IMG/VR virus record: IMGVR_UViG_3300044630_002764
Coordinates: 1 to 41,956 of that record
From: a virus
Length of the DNA: 41,956 bases
Reading direction: 5' to 3' (one strand)
The translations under genes were made by a program, and so were the position numbers. Position 1 is the first letter of the stretch. Every line of letters starts with the position of its first letter. Below, in pieces: positions 12,899-37,281 of the stretch. The notes under the pieces are model-generated. The model did no database searches and was not told the origin of the DNA. It worked only from the letters and a program-made list of their open reading frames with translations.

Positions 12899-13146
12899 AC
12901 GCAGGCTATACGAGAGTAATGGGGCAGTTTTTGCGTGGCGTGTGGGTATGCTTCTGGAGAGATTTCGGGAGGCCTCGCCGTTCATGGGCTGCGGGACGGG
13001 GCAAAATCTGGGCGTCTGTGGCACGGGAATTTGAGGCATCACTGACGGGTCAGGCACCGCTAAAAATGGCGTGTACCCCAGTTCCTGGTCACACAATCGT
13101 GGCTCTCGGTGAAAATCTGGCTCACGGTGAAACGGCTGAGTTTGAA
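12899..13146. other. GC-rich intergenic stretch without recognisable gene
   Basis: About 250 bases, clearly richer in G and C than the surrounding DNA. A 92-codon frame can be read on + (12919-13197), but it has no ribosome binding site, an odd Trp/Arg-rich composition and runs into the boundary motif, so I do not call it a gene. The stretch ends in the CCCGTTGAATTAACCCT motif. It may be structural or acquired DNA. Confidence 0.6.
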
Positions 13147-14196: not shown

Positions 14197-14350
14197 CATC
14201 GACGATTTATTTTTACAATGCTCTTTACTACAAACTGATATTGACATGGAAAAAGCTGAAGGAGGGGATCAAGACTTAATTGATGTACTTCAAGAAGCTT
14301 TAGATGTCAAACTTAAAGAATTACGCTTACAACGAACTTTCGGAGAATAA
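14189..14350 (+). CDS. Small acidic helical protein (53 aa)
   Basis: The start lies inside the last codons of the previous gene. The protein (MLNIDDLFLQCSLLQTDIDM and onward) is acidic and almost wholly helical, with LIDVLQEALDVKLKELRLQR able to form an amphipathic helix. It ends one base before the next start. Function unknown. Confidence 0.55.
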   Translation: MLNIDDLFLQCSLLQTDIDMEKAEGGDQDLIDVLQEALDVKLKELRLQRTFGE

Positions 14351-14351
14351 C

Positions 14352-14504
14352 ATGAACACTATTGAAAAAGCACAAGCAAAAGTAGATGCACAATTAGAAG
14401 CGATGAGAATCGCTCATGATGAAAGCATCAAAGCTATGGATAATGGCCAAGAAGATATGCTGGCAAAAGTACAGGCTATGTTAGCCGCAATGAAATCTAA
14501 ATGA
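14352..14504 (+). CDS. Small coiled-coil-like protein (50 aa)
   Basis: I chose the ATG at 14352 because CGGAGAATAAC lies directly upstream; an in-frame ATG at 14304 would overlap the previous gene. The sequence is Ala/Met/Lys-rich and helical throughout (IEKAQAKVDAQLEAMRIAHD), consistent with a short coiled coil. The first pseudoknot-ribozyme element begins six bases after its stop. Function unknown. Confidence 0.6.
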   Translation: MNTIEKAQAKVDAQLEAMRIAHDESIKAMDNGQEDMLAKVQAMLAAMKSK

Positions 14505-14510
14505 AAACTG

Positions 14511-14537
14511 AGACCTGAGTAGGTCTATAAAGTGCTT
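14511..14537 (+). ncRNA. Pseudoknot element 1 (PK1), fused to hammerhead 1
   Basis: Stem 1 is AGAC (14511-14514) with GTCT (14523-14526). Loop bases GAGTA (14517-14521) pair with TGCTT (14533-14537) across a 6-nt A-rich linker. The same geometry (4-bp stem, 8-nt loop, 6-nt linker, 5-nt strand) recurs in five other places. This copy starts 6 nt after a stop codon and is followed one base later by hammerhead 1. Confidence 0.75.
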
Positions 14538-14538
14538 A

Positions 14539-14590
14539 AGTGTATACGGGTAAATCCCATACTGATGAGTCCAATTCAGGACGAAACACT
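14539..14590 (+). ncRNA. Type III hammerhead ribozyme 1
   Basis: All core parts are present: CTGATGA at 14562-14568 and GAAA at 14583-14586. Stem III pairs AGTGT (14539-14543) with ACACT (14586-14590). Stem I pairs 14545-14550 with 14556-14561 with one C-A mismatch, loop TAAAT. Stem II is GTCC/GGAC with a 6-nt loop. The cleavage triplet is GTA, giving predicted cleavage between 14544 and 14545. The open helix is stem III. The next gene starts 20 nt downstream, so cleavage would separate it from the upstream message. Activity is inferred. Confidence 0.88.
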
Positions 14591-14610
14591 AACTATTTCG
14601 GAGTATTACA

Positions 14611-14958
14611 ATGTTACCATTAATTATTTTAGGCGCAGCTGCAGCAACAACTCTTACTATCAAAGCTATTAAAAAAGCTAGAGATAATAAAAATAAAAGC
14701 TTTCCATTAGAGTTAACAGAAAGTATTGCAGAGAGTACACTGGCTACTGGAGCGCTTTCAGGCATTGCCGCAGTTGTTGTATGCGCTTTAAAAGGTTTTA
14801 CAATAAATTATTTTGTTGCAACATGGACACACTATTTATTAACTGCGCTGATGTTTGTATCTTTAGTCCAAGTGTTTGTGTGGTCATTATGTGTCTTAGC
14901 CCTAATTGCTACGGCATATATCTTTAATGCACCAATAAACCCACCGTTAGAAAGATAA
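14611..14958 (+). CDS. Multi-pass membrane protein (115 aa)
   Basis: The start follows TTTCGGAGTATTACA, shortly after hammerhead 1. It begins MLPLIILGAAAATT and has about three to four hydrophobic segments: near the N-terminus, near ALSGIAAVVVCAL, and two near the C-terminus (YLLTALMFVSLVQVFVW, LCVLALIATAYIF), with a basic stretch after the first (KAIKKARDNKNK). Inner membrane location is likely. Possible roles (lysis accessory, superinfection exclusion) cannot be told apart. It ends 6 nt before pseudoknot 2. Confidence 0.7.
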   Translation: MLPLIILGAAAATTLTIKAIKKARDNKNKSFPLELTESIAESTLATGALSGIAAVVVCALKGFTINYFVATWTHYLLTALMFVSLVQVFVWSLCVLALIATAYIFNAPINPPLER

Positions 14959-14964
14959 CATAAC

Positions 14965-14991
14965 AGACCTAGACATGTCCATAAACTGTCT
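14965..14991 (+). ncRNA. Pseudoknot element 2 (PK2), fused to hammerhead 2
   Basis: Stem 1 pairs AGAC (14965-14968) with GTCC (14977-14980), three full pairs. Loop AGACA (14971-14975) pairs fully with TGTCT (14987-14991) after the linker ATAAAC. Compared with PK1, both strands of stem 2 have changed together. It starts 6 nt after the upstream stop and directly abuts hammerhead 2. Confidence 0.72.
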
Positions 14992-15044
14992 GTGTATAAG
15001 GGATGTGTATCCCATACTGATGAGGTTCAAAAGAACCGAAACAC
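14992..15044 (+). ncRNA. Type III hammerhead ribozyme 2
   Basis: The core has CTGATGA at 15017-15023 and GAAA at 15038-15041. Stem III pairs GTGT (14992-14995) with ACAC (15041-15044). Stem I has TA/TA, one A-A mismatch, then GGGAT/ATCCC closed by GTGT. Stem II is GGTTC/GAACC with loop AAAA. The predicted cleavage is between 14996 and 14997 after GTA. Stem I and II sequences differ from hammerhead 1 while pairing is kept, which argues for maintained function. Confidence 0.88.
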
Positions 15045-15067
15045 TAACTATTATTTGGAGCATTAAA

Positions 15068-15340
15068 ATGTTAAAATCAATTTCTAAAAAATTACCAGCA
15101 TTAACAAGCGTTTCAGTAGCTACAGCTGTAGCTTCAATGGGTAGTCTTGTATTAAGTACAAGTGCTAAAGTTGCAGTCTCAAGAACAGTTTTGACTGTTG
15201 GAAGATTTGCTATTGTAAGTCCATTCGCTAAAGTAGCGGTTGTTGGCGGAGCTACAGCTTTAAGTCCATTGGTAACAAGTTTAATTGCAGGAACAGTTGT
15301 CTATATCGCAGTAGATAAACTAGTTAAACACTATGCTTAA
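15068..15340 (+). CDS. Hydrophobic/alanine-rich protein (90 aa)
   Basis: I chose the ATG at 15068, behind TTTGGAGCATTAAA; an in-frame ATG at 14975 would run through hammerhead 2. The protein (MLKSISKKLPALTSVSVATA and on) is rich in Ala, Val and Ser with a basic N-terminus and probably two membrane segments (residues ~15-30 and ~55-80), ending in a basic tail (DKLVKHYA). It is probably a small membrane protein. Function unknown. Confidence 0.6.
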   Translation: MLKSISKKLPALTSVSVATAVASMGSLVLSTSAKVAVSRTVLTVGRFAIVSPFAKVAVVGGATALSPLVTSLIAGTVVYIAVDKLVKHYA

Positions 15341-15621: not shown

Positions 15622-15648
15622 AAGCCTGAGCATGCTTTAAAACTGCTT
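15622..15648 (+). ncRNA. Pseudoknot element 3 (PK3)
   Basis: Stem 1 AAGC (15622-15625) pairs with GCTT (15634-15637). Loop GAGCA (15628-15632) pairs with TGCTT (15644-15648) after the linker TAAAAC. There is no hammerhead. The 3' strand touches the ribosome binding site GAGG of the next gene (ATG at 15657), so folding could affect its translation. Confidence 0.72.
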
Positions 15649-16495: not shown

Positions 16496-17254
16496 ATGCG
16501 AATACAGCTAATTAAATCACTGAAACGAAGAATACAATTGGAGATTGCACCTCAAAGCCCTTTAAAGTTTCTAAAAGAATTGTCATTAGAAGAATTAATG
16601 GATACTATAATTTCCAATGTGTACTTATATACTCGTCCTAAAAGAGGGCAAGATAAGGCAATTCTTATGGCAGAAATTATCTCGGTAATCGGGCATTCGA
16701 TTAGAAAAGGAGTAAAGAAAGATTCGTCAGTAGCTGCTAAGGCTGGTGCCTTTATTCTTTACAGCTTCCAAGAATTGGGTTTATTGGAAGCAAAGCTCGG
16801 TGCTGCAGCAAATGGCCATGCTACATATGTGATAGAAATTTTAGATGATGCTGCAATTCAAGGGTTGTGGGAAGGAGTATCTAGAGAGGGTGGTAAAGGT
16901 AAACTCCCATCTGAAATACCTTATGAGCCTTGGACTTCATTCAAACATGTCACAGGTGCTGTATTAGTTAAAACAGGTAGTAAAGTAATACCAACATTAC
17001 TTACCCCAGAAACTCATCCTATTATCTTTGATTCTATTAATAAATCACAAGAGACTGCATGGTGTATAAATAGCGAAATCTATTCACTCGCTAAATGGGC
17101 TTTAAATAATCATACAGATGCTTTCTCGGATATTTGGGAACAAGTTAACCCTCAAGCTAAGACAACTAAGCTTAGAGAAACTAAAGCTATTTTATCTATA
17201 GCAGATAAATTTCTTGATATTCCCTTTTATCATATGTATTATCTTGACTTCCGT
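16496..17254 (+). CDS. T7-family RNA polymerase, exon 1
   Basis: 253 codons, start behind AAGGAACCCC. The region INKSQETAWCINSEIYSLAK matches the T7 polymerase segment NTAWKINKKVL, and the exon ends YYLDFR, the first half of the conserved DxRGR motif (T7 DWRGR). An in-frame stop (17255-17257) lies in the intron, so splicing is needed. Joined to exon 2 the enzyme has 738 residues against 883 in T7; the shortfall is N-terminal, about 170 residues before DxRGR, so the region holding the T7 AT-rich recognition loop is reduced or missing. It should transcribe phage middle/late genes from its own promoters. Confidence 0.9.
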
Positions 17255-18056
17255 TAATCTGGCGGAAATAAAAGAGTGTGAATTCGGGGGATATCTAGAA
17301 CAGACAATCCCGAGCCAAGCTACTGAATACTGTCGAGAGATATGGTTCAGATGAAGGTGTAACGACTATTATGTACTGGCCAAGTGGCTGGGAAGCGCAC
17401 TCCGCACTTTTAAAGATGCGATGATATAGTCTGGTCTGCATGGGAACATGTAGCAGTATGCAGTTCTCTACGTTGGAGAAAAATATGAATGAAATTTGGG
17501 AAGATTATATAAAAGGGTATTACAAAGTATCTACCACTGGAGAGATATGTAGTGTAGATAGACAAGTGCTATTTCATGGGAATTACGCATTACGAAAGGG
17601 AATAATTCTAAAGCAAACTAAAAATAGTAAAGGGTACTTAACAGTTGTGATTTGCATAGACGGCACGAGAAAGACAATTGCTAGCCACAGAGCAATTGCT
17701 GAAACTTTTATTCCAAATCCGCTGGAACTGCCACAAGTGAACCACATAGACGGAAACCCTTTAAATAATGATGTCAATAACTTAGAGTGGTGTACAGCTA
17801 GCGATAATCAAAAACATGCATACGCCACAGGTTTAAAGACTCAAGGTGAAATGCGTTTGAATGCGAAATTGACGGCTGAAGATGTGTACGAAATAGCTGA
17901 TATGATTTACGAAGGATACTCTAATAACAAAATAGCTGAAAAATATGGCGTTACAAAAGGATCGATTGAGGGTATTAAGAAAGGGCGCTCTTGGGCGCAT
18001 TTATTTAAATAGAACTGCATACGGGTGGAGAGTAACGAACTCTGCTGAACAAAACG
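17255..18056 (+). mobile_element. Group I intron in RNA polymerase gene
   Basis: 802 nt. The exon end TTCCGT (17249-17254) pairs with internal guide GCGGAA (17262-17267), with the required U-G pair at the splice site. AATCCCGAGCCAAGC (17306-17320) looks like the P3-P4 region, and ACGACTAT (17362-17369) with ATAGTC (17426-17431) forms P7. The intron would end in G at 18056. Removing it joins DFR to GRKYPTTAYLHE in frame, restoring the polymerase motif. The HNH gene lies in the 3' half. Self-splicing is inferred from the structure. Confidence 0.88.
17485..18012 (+). CDS. HNH homing endonuclease inside intron
   Basis: 175 residues; the ATG at 17485 has TTGGAG upstream. Residues ~1-40 (EIWEDYIKGYYKVSTTGEIC) are a NUMOD4 domain, followed by an HNH_3-type core with HRAIAETFIPNP and VNHIDGNPLNNDVNNLEW, keeping the histidines and asparagines. 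The C-terminus (EDVYEIADMIYEGYSNNKIA, then YGVTKGSIEGIKKG) is a helix-turn-helix DNA-binding segment. It should cut intron-less RNA polymerase genes and drive intron spread. No damage is visible, so it is probably active. Confidence 0.9.
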   Translation: MNEIWEDYIKGYYKVSTTGEICSVDRQVLFHGNYALRKGIILKQTKNSKGYLTVVICIDGTRKTIASHRAIAETFIPNPLELPQVNHIDGNPLNNDVNNLEWCTASDNQKHAYATGLKTQGEMRLNAKLTAEDVYEIADMIYEGYSNNKIAEKYGVTKGSIEGIKKGRSWAHLFK

Positions 18057-19514
18057 GGAAGGAAATATCCAACCACAGCCTATTTACATGAACAATCTAG
18101 TGATATAGCTAAAGGTTTATTGTTACGTAAAGATAAGAAAACAATCGGAGAAGAAGGTTTCTTTTGGCTTTGTGTAAGTATTGCAAGTAACTGGTCGGGC
18201 AATTCAGGGCGTGAAGATGGTGCTAAAACTGATAAGATCCCTCTGAAAGATAGATACCATTGGGTAATGGACAATGAAGAGATTATTCTATCTTATGCGG
18301 TCTCTCCTAAAGTAAATCAGGGTTGGATGGCTGCAGATAAACCTTGGCAATTCCTTGCGGCATGCGTTGAATTTAGAAATGCAATTTCAATGGGTACTCA
18401 CTATTTAGAGTATCAATCTCAGTTAGAATGCTTTATTGACGGCTCCACAAATGGCTCTCAGCATCTGTCTGCATTGACGAGAGATGAGACAACGGCGCCA
18501 TATGTTAATTTAGTGCCATTAGAGCTACCGGGCGATTTATATTCATATGTTGCCTCGCATGTTTGGAATAGAATTACCAATGAAATGCAAAAGATGCCTG
18601 CACTGACAATTCTTGAGTGTGAAGATTTCATAGATGGCTTAATATCTCTCAAAAAGAGAATAGGTTCTTCGGAACCAAAATCAGAAGTCAGGAACCAACT
18701 TGTGGCGCAGATCAGAGCTTACAAATTAAAATGGGCAGATATAGGTTCTAAAGCAGCACCTGTGTTCTGGAATAGAGTTAAAGATATTAAACAAAGAAGA
18801 AAGATTGTTAAACGTAATACAATGACATTACCATATGGTGGTAGTAGTTATGGATTAGGTGAACAACAAATCTTAGATGCAAAGAAACATGGCATAGAAC
18901 TATTAATAAATATGGAACACAAATGGGGCGCTTGGATGGGCCGGTTAGTGTTTGATGATTGTAAAGCTTCATTAGAAAGGCCTATGCAATTATTATCTAT
19001 ATTTGAAAAAGCAGGCAGAGATGCTGAGAAGCGTGGAGAATTTTTACAGTGGAATGTTCCTATAGTAAATTTTCCAGTAATACAAAACTATACAGAAGGG
19101 AAAGTAAAAAGAGTGTATGTACAGTATGGTCCACCAATGGGTGAAAGAACATCTACAGGATACTATGTAAATACACTTCAATTAGCAATATGCTTTATTG
19201 AGGATGTCTCGCCAAGTAAAGGTAAGCAAGCCCAAGGTGCTGCCCCTAACGTAATTCATAGCCTAGATGCAGCGCATTTAGCATTGACCACACATCGTTG
19301 TGATTTTCCAATCACTACAATTCATGATAGTTATGGTTGTTTATTAGCTGACATGCCAAAACTCTACAGGATCGTCCGAGAAACCTTCGTAGAGCTTTAT
19401 AATGAAAACCCTCTTTATCCAATAATGGATGAAATTGAGGGAGACCTAACCGGTGTCGATATGGGCACTCTAGATGTTAATTTGATTACGGAGTCAGAAT
19501 ATGCGTTCGCATGA
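18057..19514 (+). CDS. T7-family RNA polymerase, exon 2
   Basis: 485 codons plus stop, in frame after splicing (first residues GRKYPTTAYLHE). Catalytic motifs are complete: DGSTNGSQHLSA (motif A aspartate), KRNTMTLPYGGSSYG (motif B lysine and tyrosine), APNVIHSLDAAH, and TTIHDSYG (motif C aspartate). The enzyme is therefore expected to be active. The last codons overlap the next gene start at 19501. ATG starts inside this exon, such as 18120, are not real starts. Confidence 0.92.
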   Translation, partial: GRKYPTTAYLHEQSSDIAKGLLLRKDKKTIGEEGFFWLCVSIASNWSGNSGREDGAKTDKIPLKDRYHWVMDNEEIILSYAVSPKVNQGWMAADKPWQFLAACVEFRNAISMGTHYLEYQSQLECFIDGSTNGSQHLSALTRDETTAPYVNLVPLELPGDLYSYVASHVWNRITNEMQKMPALTILECEDFIDGLISLKKRIGSSEPKSEVRNQLVAQIRAYKLKWADIGSKAAPVFWNRVKDIKQRRKIVKRNTMTLPYGGSSYGLGEQQILDAKKHGIELLINMEHKWGAWMGRLVFDDCKASLERPMQLLSIFEKAGRDAEKRGEFLQWNVPIVNFPVIQNYTEGKVKRVYVQYGPPMGERTSTGYYVNTLQLAICFIEDVSPSKGKQAQGAAPNVIHSLDAAHLALTTHRCDFPITTIHDSYGCLLADMPKLYRIVRETFVELYNENPLYPIMDEIEGDLTGVDMGTLDVNLITESEYAFA

Positions 19515-20527: not shown

Positions 20528-20554
20528 AAGCCTGAGTAAGCTTATGAACTGCTC
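20528..20554 (+). ncRNA. Pseudoknot element 4 (PK4)
   Basis: Stem 1 AAGC (20528-20531) with GCTT (20540-20543). Loop GAGTA (20534-20538) pairs with TGCTC (20550-20554) through four standard pairs and one T-G. The linker is ATGAAC. It lies between a stop codon 6 nt upstream and the endolysin gene. Confidence 0.72.
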
Positions 20555-31047: not shown

Positions 31048-31073
31048 AGACCTAGACATGTCTTTAAACTGTC
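31048..31073 (+). ncRNA. Pseudoknot element 5 (PK5)
   Basis: Stem 1 AGAC (31048-31051) with GTCT (31060-31063). Loop GACA (31055-31058) pairs with TGTC (31070-31073); the fifth pair seen elsewhere is an A-C mismatch here. Linker TTAAAC. It lies 4 nt after a stop and 25 nt before the ligase start. Confidence 0.68.
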
Positions 31074-31098
31074 CTTTTAATCGACTTTGGAGAATACA

Positions 31099-32412
31099 AT
31101 GATAAATAGTAAAGAGATTTATGATGCAGTTGAGAGAATCGCTGATGAGCCTAGTAAGATCGCTAAGACATTAATGCTAGAATGGGCTATACAGAATATA
31201 CAAGGTTTCAGAGCTGTTTTGATTTATGCATATAACCCATTCTTGATGTATAATCTTCGAAACGTCCTTGCATTGATGCGTAGCACTGAAGAAGGTAGTG
31301 ACTTTAGTTTAGACACGTATAAGTTATTGGATGCATTATCTGAGAGATTATTGACAGGTGGAAGAGCTTTAAAAGCAGTCAGGAATCATTTAATGGATCT
31401 CAATGCCGACTCTGAAGAGTTATTCCGTAGGATTTTAAAGAAAGATTTACGTGGTGGATTTGATGTTAAGACTATCAATAATGCTTGTAAGGGTTTAATC
31501 CCCGTGGCAAGCTATATGAGATGTAGTTTACCGAAAGATGTAAAGATGGAGAACTTTAAGTACCCTGCTTATTCTCAGGAAAAGGCAGATGGACTGTTTG
31601 TCAATATAACACTTGTTGATGATTCATTAACAATGTTGTCTAGAACATATCAGCCAATGCCTATTGATAAATACTCAAGGATATTAGACACTAATGAGAT
31701 GGTTGATGGTTACCAATACCATGGCGAGTTATTAGTTGAAGTTGGAGGTAAAGTTGTCTCTCGTAAAATAAGTAATGGTATCTTAAATAGAGTAAATAAA
31801 GGAGGGGATTTCGGGCCTACTGAAGTTCCAATCTTTATTGCATGGGATATGGTACCTGTTAAAGATATTAAAAATGGTTTATGTGAAATACCTTATGTTG
31901 AGCGATTCCTAATGCTCGAAGAGACACTACCATGTGATTGGCAGATAATTCAAACAGTTGTAGTATATAGTTACGCTGAAGCTCGGATACACTTTGATGC
32001 TTTAGTTAAAAGAGGTAAAGAAGGTTCAGTACTTAAAGATATGCAAGCTATTTGGAAAGATGGTAAATCTACGCAGATAGTTAAACTTAAACAAGAACAC
32101 GAATGTGAACTGAGAATTATAGACTTTGTAGCTGGAACTGGTGCTAATGAGTTTACATTTGGCTCATTGGCTTGTACAACAGAGTGTGGGGAGCTTGCTG
32201 TAAATGTAGGTAATCTAACAGATGCTTTAACATTTGAAATTAATGCCAATAAAGAGGATTGGAGATTTGCAATTATAGCTGTCACATATTCGACAGCTAT
32301 ACAAGATAAGAAAGGAAGATATTCATTGTTCGAACCAAAATTTGTTGAGAGAAGATATGATCTCGATGAAGCTAACTATTTAAGTGATTTACTAACTGGA
32401 GATTCAAAATGA
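31099..32412 (+). CDS. ATP-dependent DNA ligase
   Basis: 437 residues; ATG at 31099 behind TTTGGAGAATACA. The nucleotidyl-transfer motif EKADGLF (~160) gives the lysine that carries AMP, followed by YHGELLVE (motif III), EGSVLKDMQAIW (motif IV) and VKLKQEHECELRI (motif V), then an OB-fold region. This is the compact phage ligase plan as in T7 gp1.3, with a longer N-terminal helical part. It seals nicks in replication. The stop overlaps the next start. Confidence 0.92.
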   Translation: MINSKEIYDAVERIADEPSKIAKTLMLEWAIQNIQGFRAVLIYAYNPFLMYNLRNVLALMRSTEEGSDFSLDTYKLLDALSERLLTGGRALKAVRNHLMDLNADSEELFRRILKKDLRGGFDVKTINNACKGLIPVASYMRCSLPKDVKMENFKYPAYSQEKADGLFVNITLVDDSLTMLSRTYQPMPIDKYSRILDTNEMVDGYQYHGELLVEVGGKVVSRKISNGILNRVNKGGDFGPTEVPIFIAWDMVPVKDIKNGLCEIPYVERFLMLEETLPCDWQIIQTVVVYSYAEARIHFDALVKRGKEGSVLKDMQAIWKDGKSTQIVKLKQEHECELRIIDFVAGTGANEFTFGSLACTTECGELAVNVGNLTDALTFEINANKEDWRFAIIAVTYSTAIQDKKGRYSLFEPKFVERRYDLDEANYLSDLLTGDSK

Positions 32413-33224: not shown

Positions 33225-33263
33225 TTTAACATGGCCAAGGATGGCCTCAATTTGGAGATCTAT

Positions 33264-33926
33264 ATGAAACTTGAAGTAGGTAATTTCTATTACAATCGTA
33301 ATGACGCAATAGTAGAGCTGGTGGAAAAGAAAGCATTAGGTAAATATCCATATAAAGTCTTATTAACTAGCGGTGATTCGTATTTTGTCGATAAGAATGG
33401 TAGAGATCTCGGCGATATGACAATGACAGGCAGAGACTTATTAAGTGAGGCTGGAAAAGTGAAGAAAGCAATATTTACAATCGGTATTAGTGCAAGCGGT
33501 AAAAGTACTTGGGCAAAACAACAAGCAGCTTATAAGGTAATTGATAGAGATGTTATCAGACGTGAGCTTTTGATGGCGCATTGTGACTTTAATCCAGAGA
33601 CTCAAAACATGTGGGACTTCTGGGATTTTGATACTATGGAATCGGAATGTCAGATATTGAGAGAAATGATGTTTAAAGAGTATGTGGGTGCCGGGCGTAA
33701 TATTATCTTCTGTGACACCAATCTTAAACTCCCTTACGTAGAAGATACATGTCCTATCATTCAAGAGTTACTCTTTAGAGATTATCGTGTTAAATATAAG
33801 AAATTCCCAATTGCTTTGGAGGAAGCTCAACGTAGGAATAGTCTTAGAACCCACGCCGTCAATCCACATGTGATAGAAAATCAAATTGTTGCTTATGCTA
33901 AATTGGAGAAAGAATATGGAAGCTGA
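33264..33926 (+). CDS. P-loop kinase with N-terminal TR-G-like module
   Basis: 220 residues; the ATG at 33264 has TTTGGAG upstream, while an upstream ATG at 33231 has none. Residues 1-65 (LEVGNFYYNRNDAIVELV ... YFVDKNGRDLGDM) are a diverged copy of the module in the preceding gene. Residues ~70-220 are a P-loop kinase: IGISASGKSTWAKQ (Walker A), VIDRDVIRREL and CDTNLKLP, as in the polynucleotide kinase/AAA_33 family. It may phosphorylate 5' ends of nucleic acid. A hammerhead leaves 5'-OH ends, a possible substrate (speculation). Confidence 0.8.
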   Translation: MKLEVGNFYYNRNDAIVELVEKKALGKYPYKVLLTSGDSYFVDKNGRDLGDMTMTGRDLLSEAGKVKKAIFTIGISASGKSTWAKQQAAYKVIDRDVIRRELLMAHCDFNPETQNMWDFWDFDTMESECQILREMMFKEYVGAGRNIIFCDTNLKLPYVEDTCPIIQELLFRDYRVKYKKFPIALEEAQRRNSLRTHAVNPHVIENQIVAYAKLEKEYGS

Positions 33927-37254: not shown

Positions 37255-37281
37255 AAGCCTGAGTATGCTTCTCAACTGCTC
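37255..37281 (+). ncRNA. Pseudoknot element 6 (PK6)
   Basis: Stem 1 AAGC (37255-37258) with GCTT (37267-37270). Loop GAGTA (37261-37265) pairs with TGCTC (37277-37281), linker CTCAAC. It starts 8 nt after the stop and 49 nt before the next start. Confidence 0.72.

Follow-up and report, generated by a model that had tools for sequence, protein, structure and literature searches.

The window analyzed here, meaning the whole stretch of DNA under study, is a 41,956-base virus record whose main genes all share one orientation. Its T7-like RNA polymerase gene is split by an HNH endonuclease reading frame, and among named phages the closest polymerase is that of DSS3_VP1 (36%). Relatives of the window carry polymerases 79–92% identical to its own on contigs of 19–79 kb. 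The HNH insert (17250–18057) interrupts the polymerase gene near position 17250; a related insert in L132 and L134–L136 occupies another point of that gene (window-equivalent about 18830) with a 217-bp flank in common, a pattern that suggests a mobile intron or homing element. Approximately 1.5–2 kb upstream of the polymerase gene, three small reading frames are separated by two type III hammerheads, HH1 and HH2:

14304..14504, + strand: ORF of 66 aa, upstream of HH1; charged, without a predicted membrane segment
14539..14590, + strand: type III hammerhead HH1; predicted cut 14544/14545
14611..14958, + strand: ORF of 115 aa, probable small membrane protein; hydrophobic, inside the predicted 452-nt RNA 14545–14996
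14992..15044, + strand: type III hammerhead HH2; predicted cut 14996/14997
15068..15340, + strand: ORF of 90 aa, downstream of HH2; hydrophobic

A blastn search with the hammerhead locus against named phages returned no related sequence, and neither PHROG nor Pfam gave a convincing match for the proteins of 14611–14958 and 15068–15340. The last frame (ORF 14975–15340) has its first start codon upstream of HH2, but the plausible start is 15068, placing HH2 between genes. An earlier, sequence-only reading of this DNA put each hammerhead between genes for small membrane proteins. This is accurate for HH2 but not for HH1, since the ORF before it is charged.

Both hammerheads have a complete core (CUGANGA, GAAA and the UH cleavage site), with GUA as the cleavage triplet. 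HH1 reads AGUGUA / UACGGGUAAAUCCCAUA CUGAUGA GUCCAAUUCAGGAC GAA ACACU and HH2 reads GUGUA / UAAGGGAUGUGUAUCCCAUA CUGAUGA GGUUCAAAAGAACC GAA ACAC, where the slash marks the predicted cut. Each is open at stem III, which has 5 bp in HH1 and 4 bp in HH2; stem II has 4 and 5 bp, respectively, and stem I has 5 and 7 bp with the third pair mismatched (C.A in HH1, A.A in HH2). Two type III hammerheads within 14539–15044, with cuts at 14545 and 14997, are what the sequence-only reading had proposed, and our predictions agree with it; its three stems are likewise all present, except that stem I contains one mismatch in each ribozyme. Folded in isolation, both RNAs adopt the hammerhead shape as their minimum-energy structure, except for the stem I pairs adjoining the mismatch. 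Adding 100 nt of flanking sequence makes an alternative slightly more favorable for HH1, whose minimum-energy fold is then no longer the ribozyme.

The Rfam hammerhead model (RF00008), the check suggested at the outset, scored HH1 at 34.6 bits (E = 1.8e-7) and HH2 at 31.6 bits (E = 1.3e-6) within this record and had zero matches in 14 control genomes. Neither site reaches the curators' 48.5-bit gathering cut-off, which is a database inclusion rule rather than a biological feature. Because most of the phage relatives examined also score below 48.5 bits, the cut-off is strict for this group. A scan for core plus stems across both strands of the 42 kb identified HH1 and HH2 as the sole sites, whereas the loose core pattern alone gave 11 sites in the window against 3.1 expected, indicating that the stems carry the specificity.

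To judge conservation, we turned to other phages. An initial pattern scan of viral sequences produced mostly chance matches, with convincing hammerheads in about 9 of 120 stretches. Across 21 distinct hammerheads (19 picked by core letters only, plus the window's two), pairing is nearly complete in all three stems, and variable stem positions show 3–5 pair types, as expected of compensatory change. Loop motifs that might make the loop I–loop II tertiary contact also recur, GGAUGUGU..AUCC with CAGAA or CAAAAG. Within the window's own relatives, a single type III hammerhead lies in the same region of L125, L129, L130, L131 and L132; L134 and L137 have a variant in which an additional U follows CUGAUGA, and the other relatives have none. 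One additional base, U or A, separates CUGAUGA from stem II in L134, L137, L293–L295 and L297. In L132, the nearest relative, a copy of the HH1 module is 98.8% identical over 83 nt and stands before a homologue of the window's second gene (15068–15340; 41% identity over 59 aa), implying that the module moves as a unit, independently of the downstream gene. Comparison of gene 14611–14958 with the second gene downstream of the L132 hammerhead did not support homology between the two.

The sub-cut-off Rfam scores, the mismatched stem I and the short stem III might be taken as signs that the hammerheads are degenerate or inactive remnants. This is highly improbable, as every core base is intact, the closest relative is conserved and the stems are kept by compensatory change across phages. 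The same L132 copy and compensatory changes bear out the original suggestion that stem pairing is under selection. Because phage hammerheads found by sequence alone keep their stems in this way, we conclude from structure and conservation that HH1 and HH2 are real hammerhead ribozymes.

A separate type III family occurs in Bacteroidota-like phages (L139–L141, L145, L155, L158–L171 and L428), including the cultured Flavobacterium elemo phages, with Flavobacterium sp. BAL314 as a host. These hammerheads are preceded by a conserved leader, GACTATAAA..GGGTAAGTCTACTCTGG or CCACGAACCCAAATAGGTAGTATGTGCGAG, and followed by an ATG approximately 10–20 nt downstream. Where tested, the leader had no Rfam match. 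The idea that some large RNA already known lies upstream in these phages was rejected, since Rfam matched tRNAs only.

By position, the two ribozymes would cut the polycistronic message and free gene 14611–14958, as had been proposed from the sequence; the freed RNA would measure 452 nt (14545–14996). A tandem pair flanking one gene is indeed what the window contains, although the idea itself was published in 2011 for single phage genes (PMC3088659). The arrangement, two like-oriented type III hammerheads bracketing 452 nt, also resembles retrozyme-like elements (general knowledge; PMC7761336), raising the question of whether cleavage followed by ligation circularizes or splices the RNA and frees a 452-nt circle. 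We consider this very improbable: most relatives carry one hammerhead only, and when circles were sought in published phage cases, none was seen (PMC3088659).

The earlier account was incomplete in one respect, having missed a conserved structure before each hammerhead that recurs elsewhere in the genome. The 27 nt directly upstream of each form an H-type pseudoknot, which adjoins the ribozyme at a distance of 0–1 nt. Seeding a motif search with the sequence preceding each hammerhead revealed six copies within the window, every one of them intergenic and on the coding strand:

14511..14537, + strand: pseudoknot element 1, 6 nt after the stop codon 14502–14504
14965..14991, + strand: pseudoknot element 2, 6 nt after the stop codon 14956–14958 and 0 nt before HH2
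15622..15648, + strand: pseudoknot copy without hammerhead
20528..20554, + strand: pseudoknot copy without hammerhead
31048..31074, + strand: pseudoknot copy without hammerhead, AGACA/UGUCC
37255..37281, + strand: pseudoknot copy without hammerhead

In this fold, helix P1 is AGAC/GUCU or AAGC/GCUU, and helix P2 pairs the loop bases with the tail. Element 1 has AGAC (14511–14514) with GUCU (14523–14526) as P1 and loop GAGUA (14517–14521) with tail UGCUU (14533–14537) as P2. Element 2 has GAC/GUC as P1, and its P2, AGACA (14971–14975) with UGUCU (14987–14991), replaces the consensus GAGCA/UGCUC, a compensatory change within this genome.

The element recurs at more than 200 distinct viral sites. 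A loose pattern had at least 119 matches in viral contigs, compared to about 2 expected by chance from a base-count estimate, and the reversed-pattern control had 0. Because our scanner itself demands pairing, we counted covariation only on sets obtained with patterns that omit the tested pairs. For P2, a scan leaving three loop and three tail bases free gave 101 distinct sites, at which 290 of 303 cells pair, against a shuffle mean of 229 and a maximum of 247. The pair types are diverse (GAG/CTC, AAG/CTT, GAA/TTC, AGG/CCT, GGA/TCC and AGT/ACT, along with AGA/TCT, GCC/GGC, AAT/ATT, TAG/CTA, GGC/GCC and GGG/CCC). Within the hammerhead modules, 78 of 80 P1 cells pair (shuffle maximum 68), with types including AATC/GATT, AGAC/GTCT, GCTC/GAGT, TATC/GATA and CGTC/GACG. 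The shuffles ignore sequence kinship; the many distinct Watson-Crick combinations are independent of it. At most sites the element starts 4–18 nt after a stop codon, which links it to the preceding gene's 3′ end. Searched with the covariance models of Rfam 15, it had no relevant match up to E = 10. Given the strong covariation, the wide occurrence and the lack of an Rfam family, the pseudoknot may be a new class of phage RNA.

Six intergenic copies near gene starts had led us to suspect a promoter for the phage polymerase, with the hammerhead trimming the 5′ leader of the new transcript. The copies do share one strand, and those lacking an intervening hammerhead sit 9–26 nt ahead of start codons. 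However, both helices covary, and a double-stranded promoter needs no pairing; the element is tied to upstream stop codons; and G001 and G004, relatives of 75–79 kb with an 81% identical polymerase, lack both the element and the hammerhead. On these grounds we rejected the promoter, which is improbable in light of all three. Separately, the window holds two further repeated same-strand elements, ACCCCGTTAAATTAACCCT and GCGGGAAAAGGGGTATCTTATATGAAGTAC (at 13145, 22311, 35674, 40629, 40768, 40781 and 13257, 13939, 34970), that are candidates for phage promoters or regulator sites.

Many metagenomic viruses contain the pseudoknot, and so do crAss-like phages, Lactobacillus phages, including KC5a of Lactobacillus gasseri, and spacers of one bacterial CRISPR array. 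tRNA genes follow it closely in L174, L214, L229 and the crAss-like phage cr124_1; in cr7_1 it precedes the primase gene, and in the Lactobacillus prophage Lj771 it lies between the minor head and scaffold genes (these sites are L430, L431, L174, L214, L229 and L429). A CRISPR array in Ignavibacteria (L420, 1700–3150, and L427, CP054675.1; repeat GTCTCAATTCCACTATGGTTCAATTCAAAT) contains at least five different spacers with the pseudoknot consensus, as if the host had repeatedly captured the phage element.

How closely are pseudoknot and hammerhead coupled? The order stop codon, pseudoknot, hammerhead, Shine-Dalgarno, ATG is found in at least five phage groups. A pattern for the element followed by a hammerhead core, with no pairing required, matched 25 stretches in viral contigs, where well under 1 is expected by a base-count estimate. 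The 19 distinct hammerheads among them are those counted above for stem pairing. The coupled groups differ in hammerhead sequence: L154/L166/L296/L298/L304/L306/L308; L290/L291/L293/L295/L300/L301; L292/L299; L294/L297; and the window's clade. The gap between the two parts is 0–1 nt in most modules and 6–16 nt in some. In G032, which has two hammerheads 760 nt apart, a pseudoknot adjoins one and a GC hairpin, GGGAGCUAACGCUCCC, the other. This replacement is our best evidence that the important feature is stable folding of the newly made 3′ end. The L076 hammerhead is likewise adjoined by a 10-bp hairpin.

An abutting structure is not universal, as the Bacteroidota-like phage hammerheads have a different leader. 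In the 40 nt upstream of 25 hammerheads, mostly without the element, the mean folding z was -1.0, compared to -0.3 and -0.2 in control windows. The excess of folding just upstream of these hammerheads is modest, and the notion that a stable hairpin adjoins every hammerhead is only partly true.

One challenge to coupling comes from the frequency of the pseudoknot. When pseudoknots were sampled regardless of hammerheads, a hammerhead-like core came next in only 1–2 of 228, indicating that the pseudoknot also functions independently. One could argue that the hammerheads perform plain processing and that the pseudoknot, perhaps a binding site or a signal for translation or readthrough, merely shares their intergenic gaps. 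It is far commoner than hammerheads, it also precedes tRNAs and ordinary genes, and phage intergenic space is scarce, so elements crowd together. Still, the gap is 0–1 nt in most modules of several different phage groups, a GC hairpin takes the same position in G032, and we regard independence as unlikely.

Instead, we favor, with a probability of roughly 0.6, the view that HH1 and HH2 are genuine hammerheads and that each is the second half of a two-part RNA-processing module with the pseudoknot, made for cleavage and presumably for end protection. The sequences themselves show that the ribozyme structure is conserved, that the pseudoknot exists and covaries, and that the two adjoin each other repeatedly in different phages. 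From these we infer cleavage in vivo, protection of the ends and any effect on gene expression.

Hammerhead cleavage leaves 2′,3′-cyclic phosphate and 5′-OH ends. In a type III hammerhead, almost nothing stays on the upstream product, and both hairpins go with the downstream product. The module in the window, running from the stop codon through 6 nt, the H-type pseudoknot, 0–1 nt and the hammerhead to the Shine-Dalgarno sequence and start codon, would exploit both sides of the cut. The polycistronic transcript would cut itself at 14544/14545 and 14996/14997. Each upstream mRNA would then end in a compact pseudoknot, a few bases and a 2′,3′-cyclic phosphate, an end that should hinder 3′-to-5′ exonucleases. 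Each downstream mRNA would start with a 5′-OH and the hairpins of stems I and II, features that should impede 5′-end-dependent decay. Gene 14611–14958 would be freed as a 452-nt single-gene mRNA (14545–14996) with both ends structured. The window also encodes, at 33231–33926 and 31087–32412, a polynucleotide-kinase-like protein and an ATP-dependent ligase; these could in principle act on 5′-OH ends, but no evidence ties them to the hammerheads.

More tentatively, and with less confidence than we place in the module, we suggest that the 27-nt pseudoknot is a widespread, hitherto unrecognized phage RNA class that forms or protects mRNA 3′ ends directly after stop codons. Hammerheads would have been recruited repeatedly to the spot immediately after it, or after a hairpin, acting as self-cutting "terminators" and determining the position of the protected end. 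Protection of the 3′ end by the pseudoknot is only one reading among others. For the role of hammerheads in phages, an upstream partner structure offers a testable answer: defined, protected mRNA ends.

Among known RNAs, the type III members of RF00008 share with HH1 and HH2 the core CUGANGA...GAAA, the UH site, the three stems and the open stem III. The window's ribozymes differ in their short stem III (4–5 bp), mismatched stem I, sub-cut-off scores and preceding pseudoknot. The preQ1-I riboswitch is an H-type pseudoknot RNA, and pseudoknots of its kind are similar to our element in consisting of a single hairpin, about 30 nt in all, with pairing between its loop and the 3′ tail. The element, however, is found after stop codons of diverse phage genes and not in metabolic leaders, and it lacks an Rfam match at E up to 10.

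Neither the pseudoknot nor its association with hammerheads was described in the literature searched, with most subscription journals outside it. The pseudoknot directly upstream of each hammerhead may be the new part of this system, though an earlier description is possible. According to PMC3088659, HHphage of haloviruses HF1/HF2 also places a hammerhead shortly before a start codon, 13 nt away within the early region, and a 5′ end has been mapped at most three nucleotides from the cleavage site; it differs in belonging to an archaeal virus, in its variant core and in the one ribozyme described. A close parallel is with the clustered hammerheads that Perreault et al. (2011) reported flanking prophage genes in Clostridium scindens, Azorhizobium caulinodans and Agrobacterium tumefaciens (ardA). 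These tandem ribozymes cleave in vitro, the Agrobacterium set also in E. coli, and were proposed to turn long transcripts into operon- or gene-length mRNAs (PMC3088659). Like the window, these clusters set several hammerheads around single genes in phage messages. Unlike them, as far as the sections considered here describe the clusters, the window belongs to a phage with a T7-like RNA polymerase, both of its ribozymes are type III, and each follows a pseudoknot, whereas those sections mention no conserved structure directly upstream (PMC3088659).
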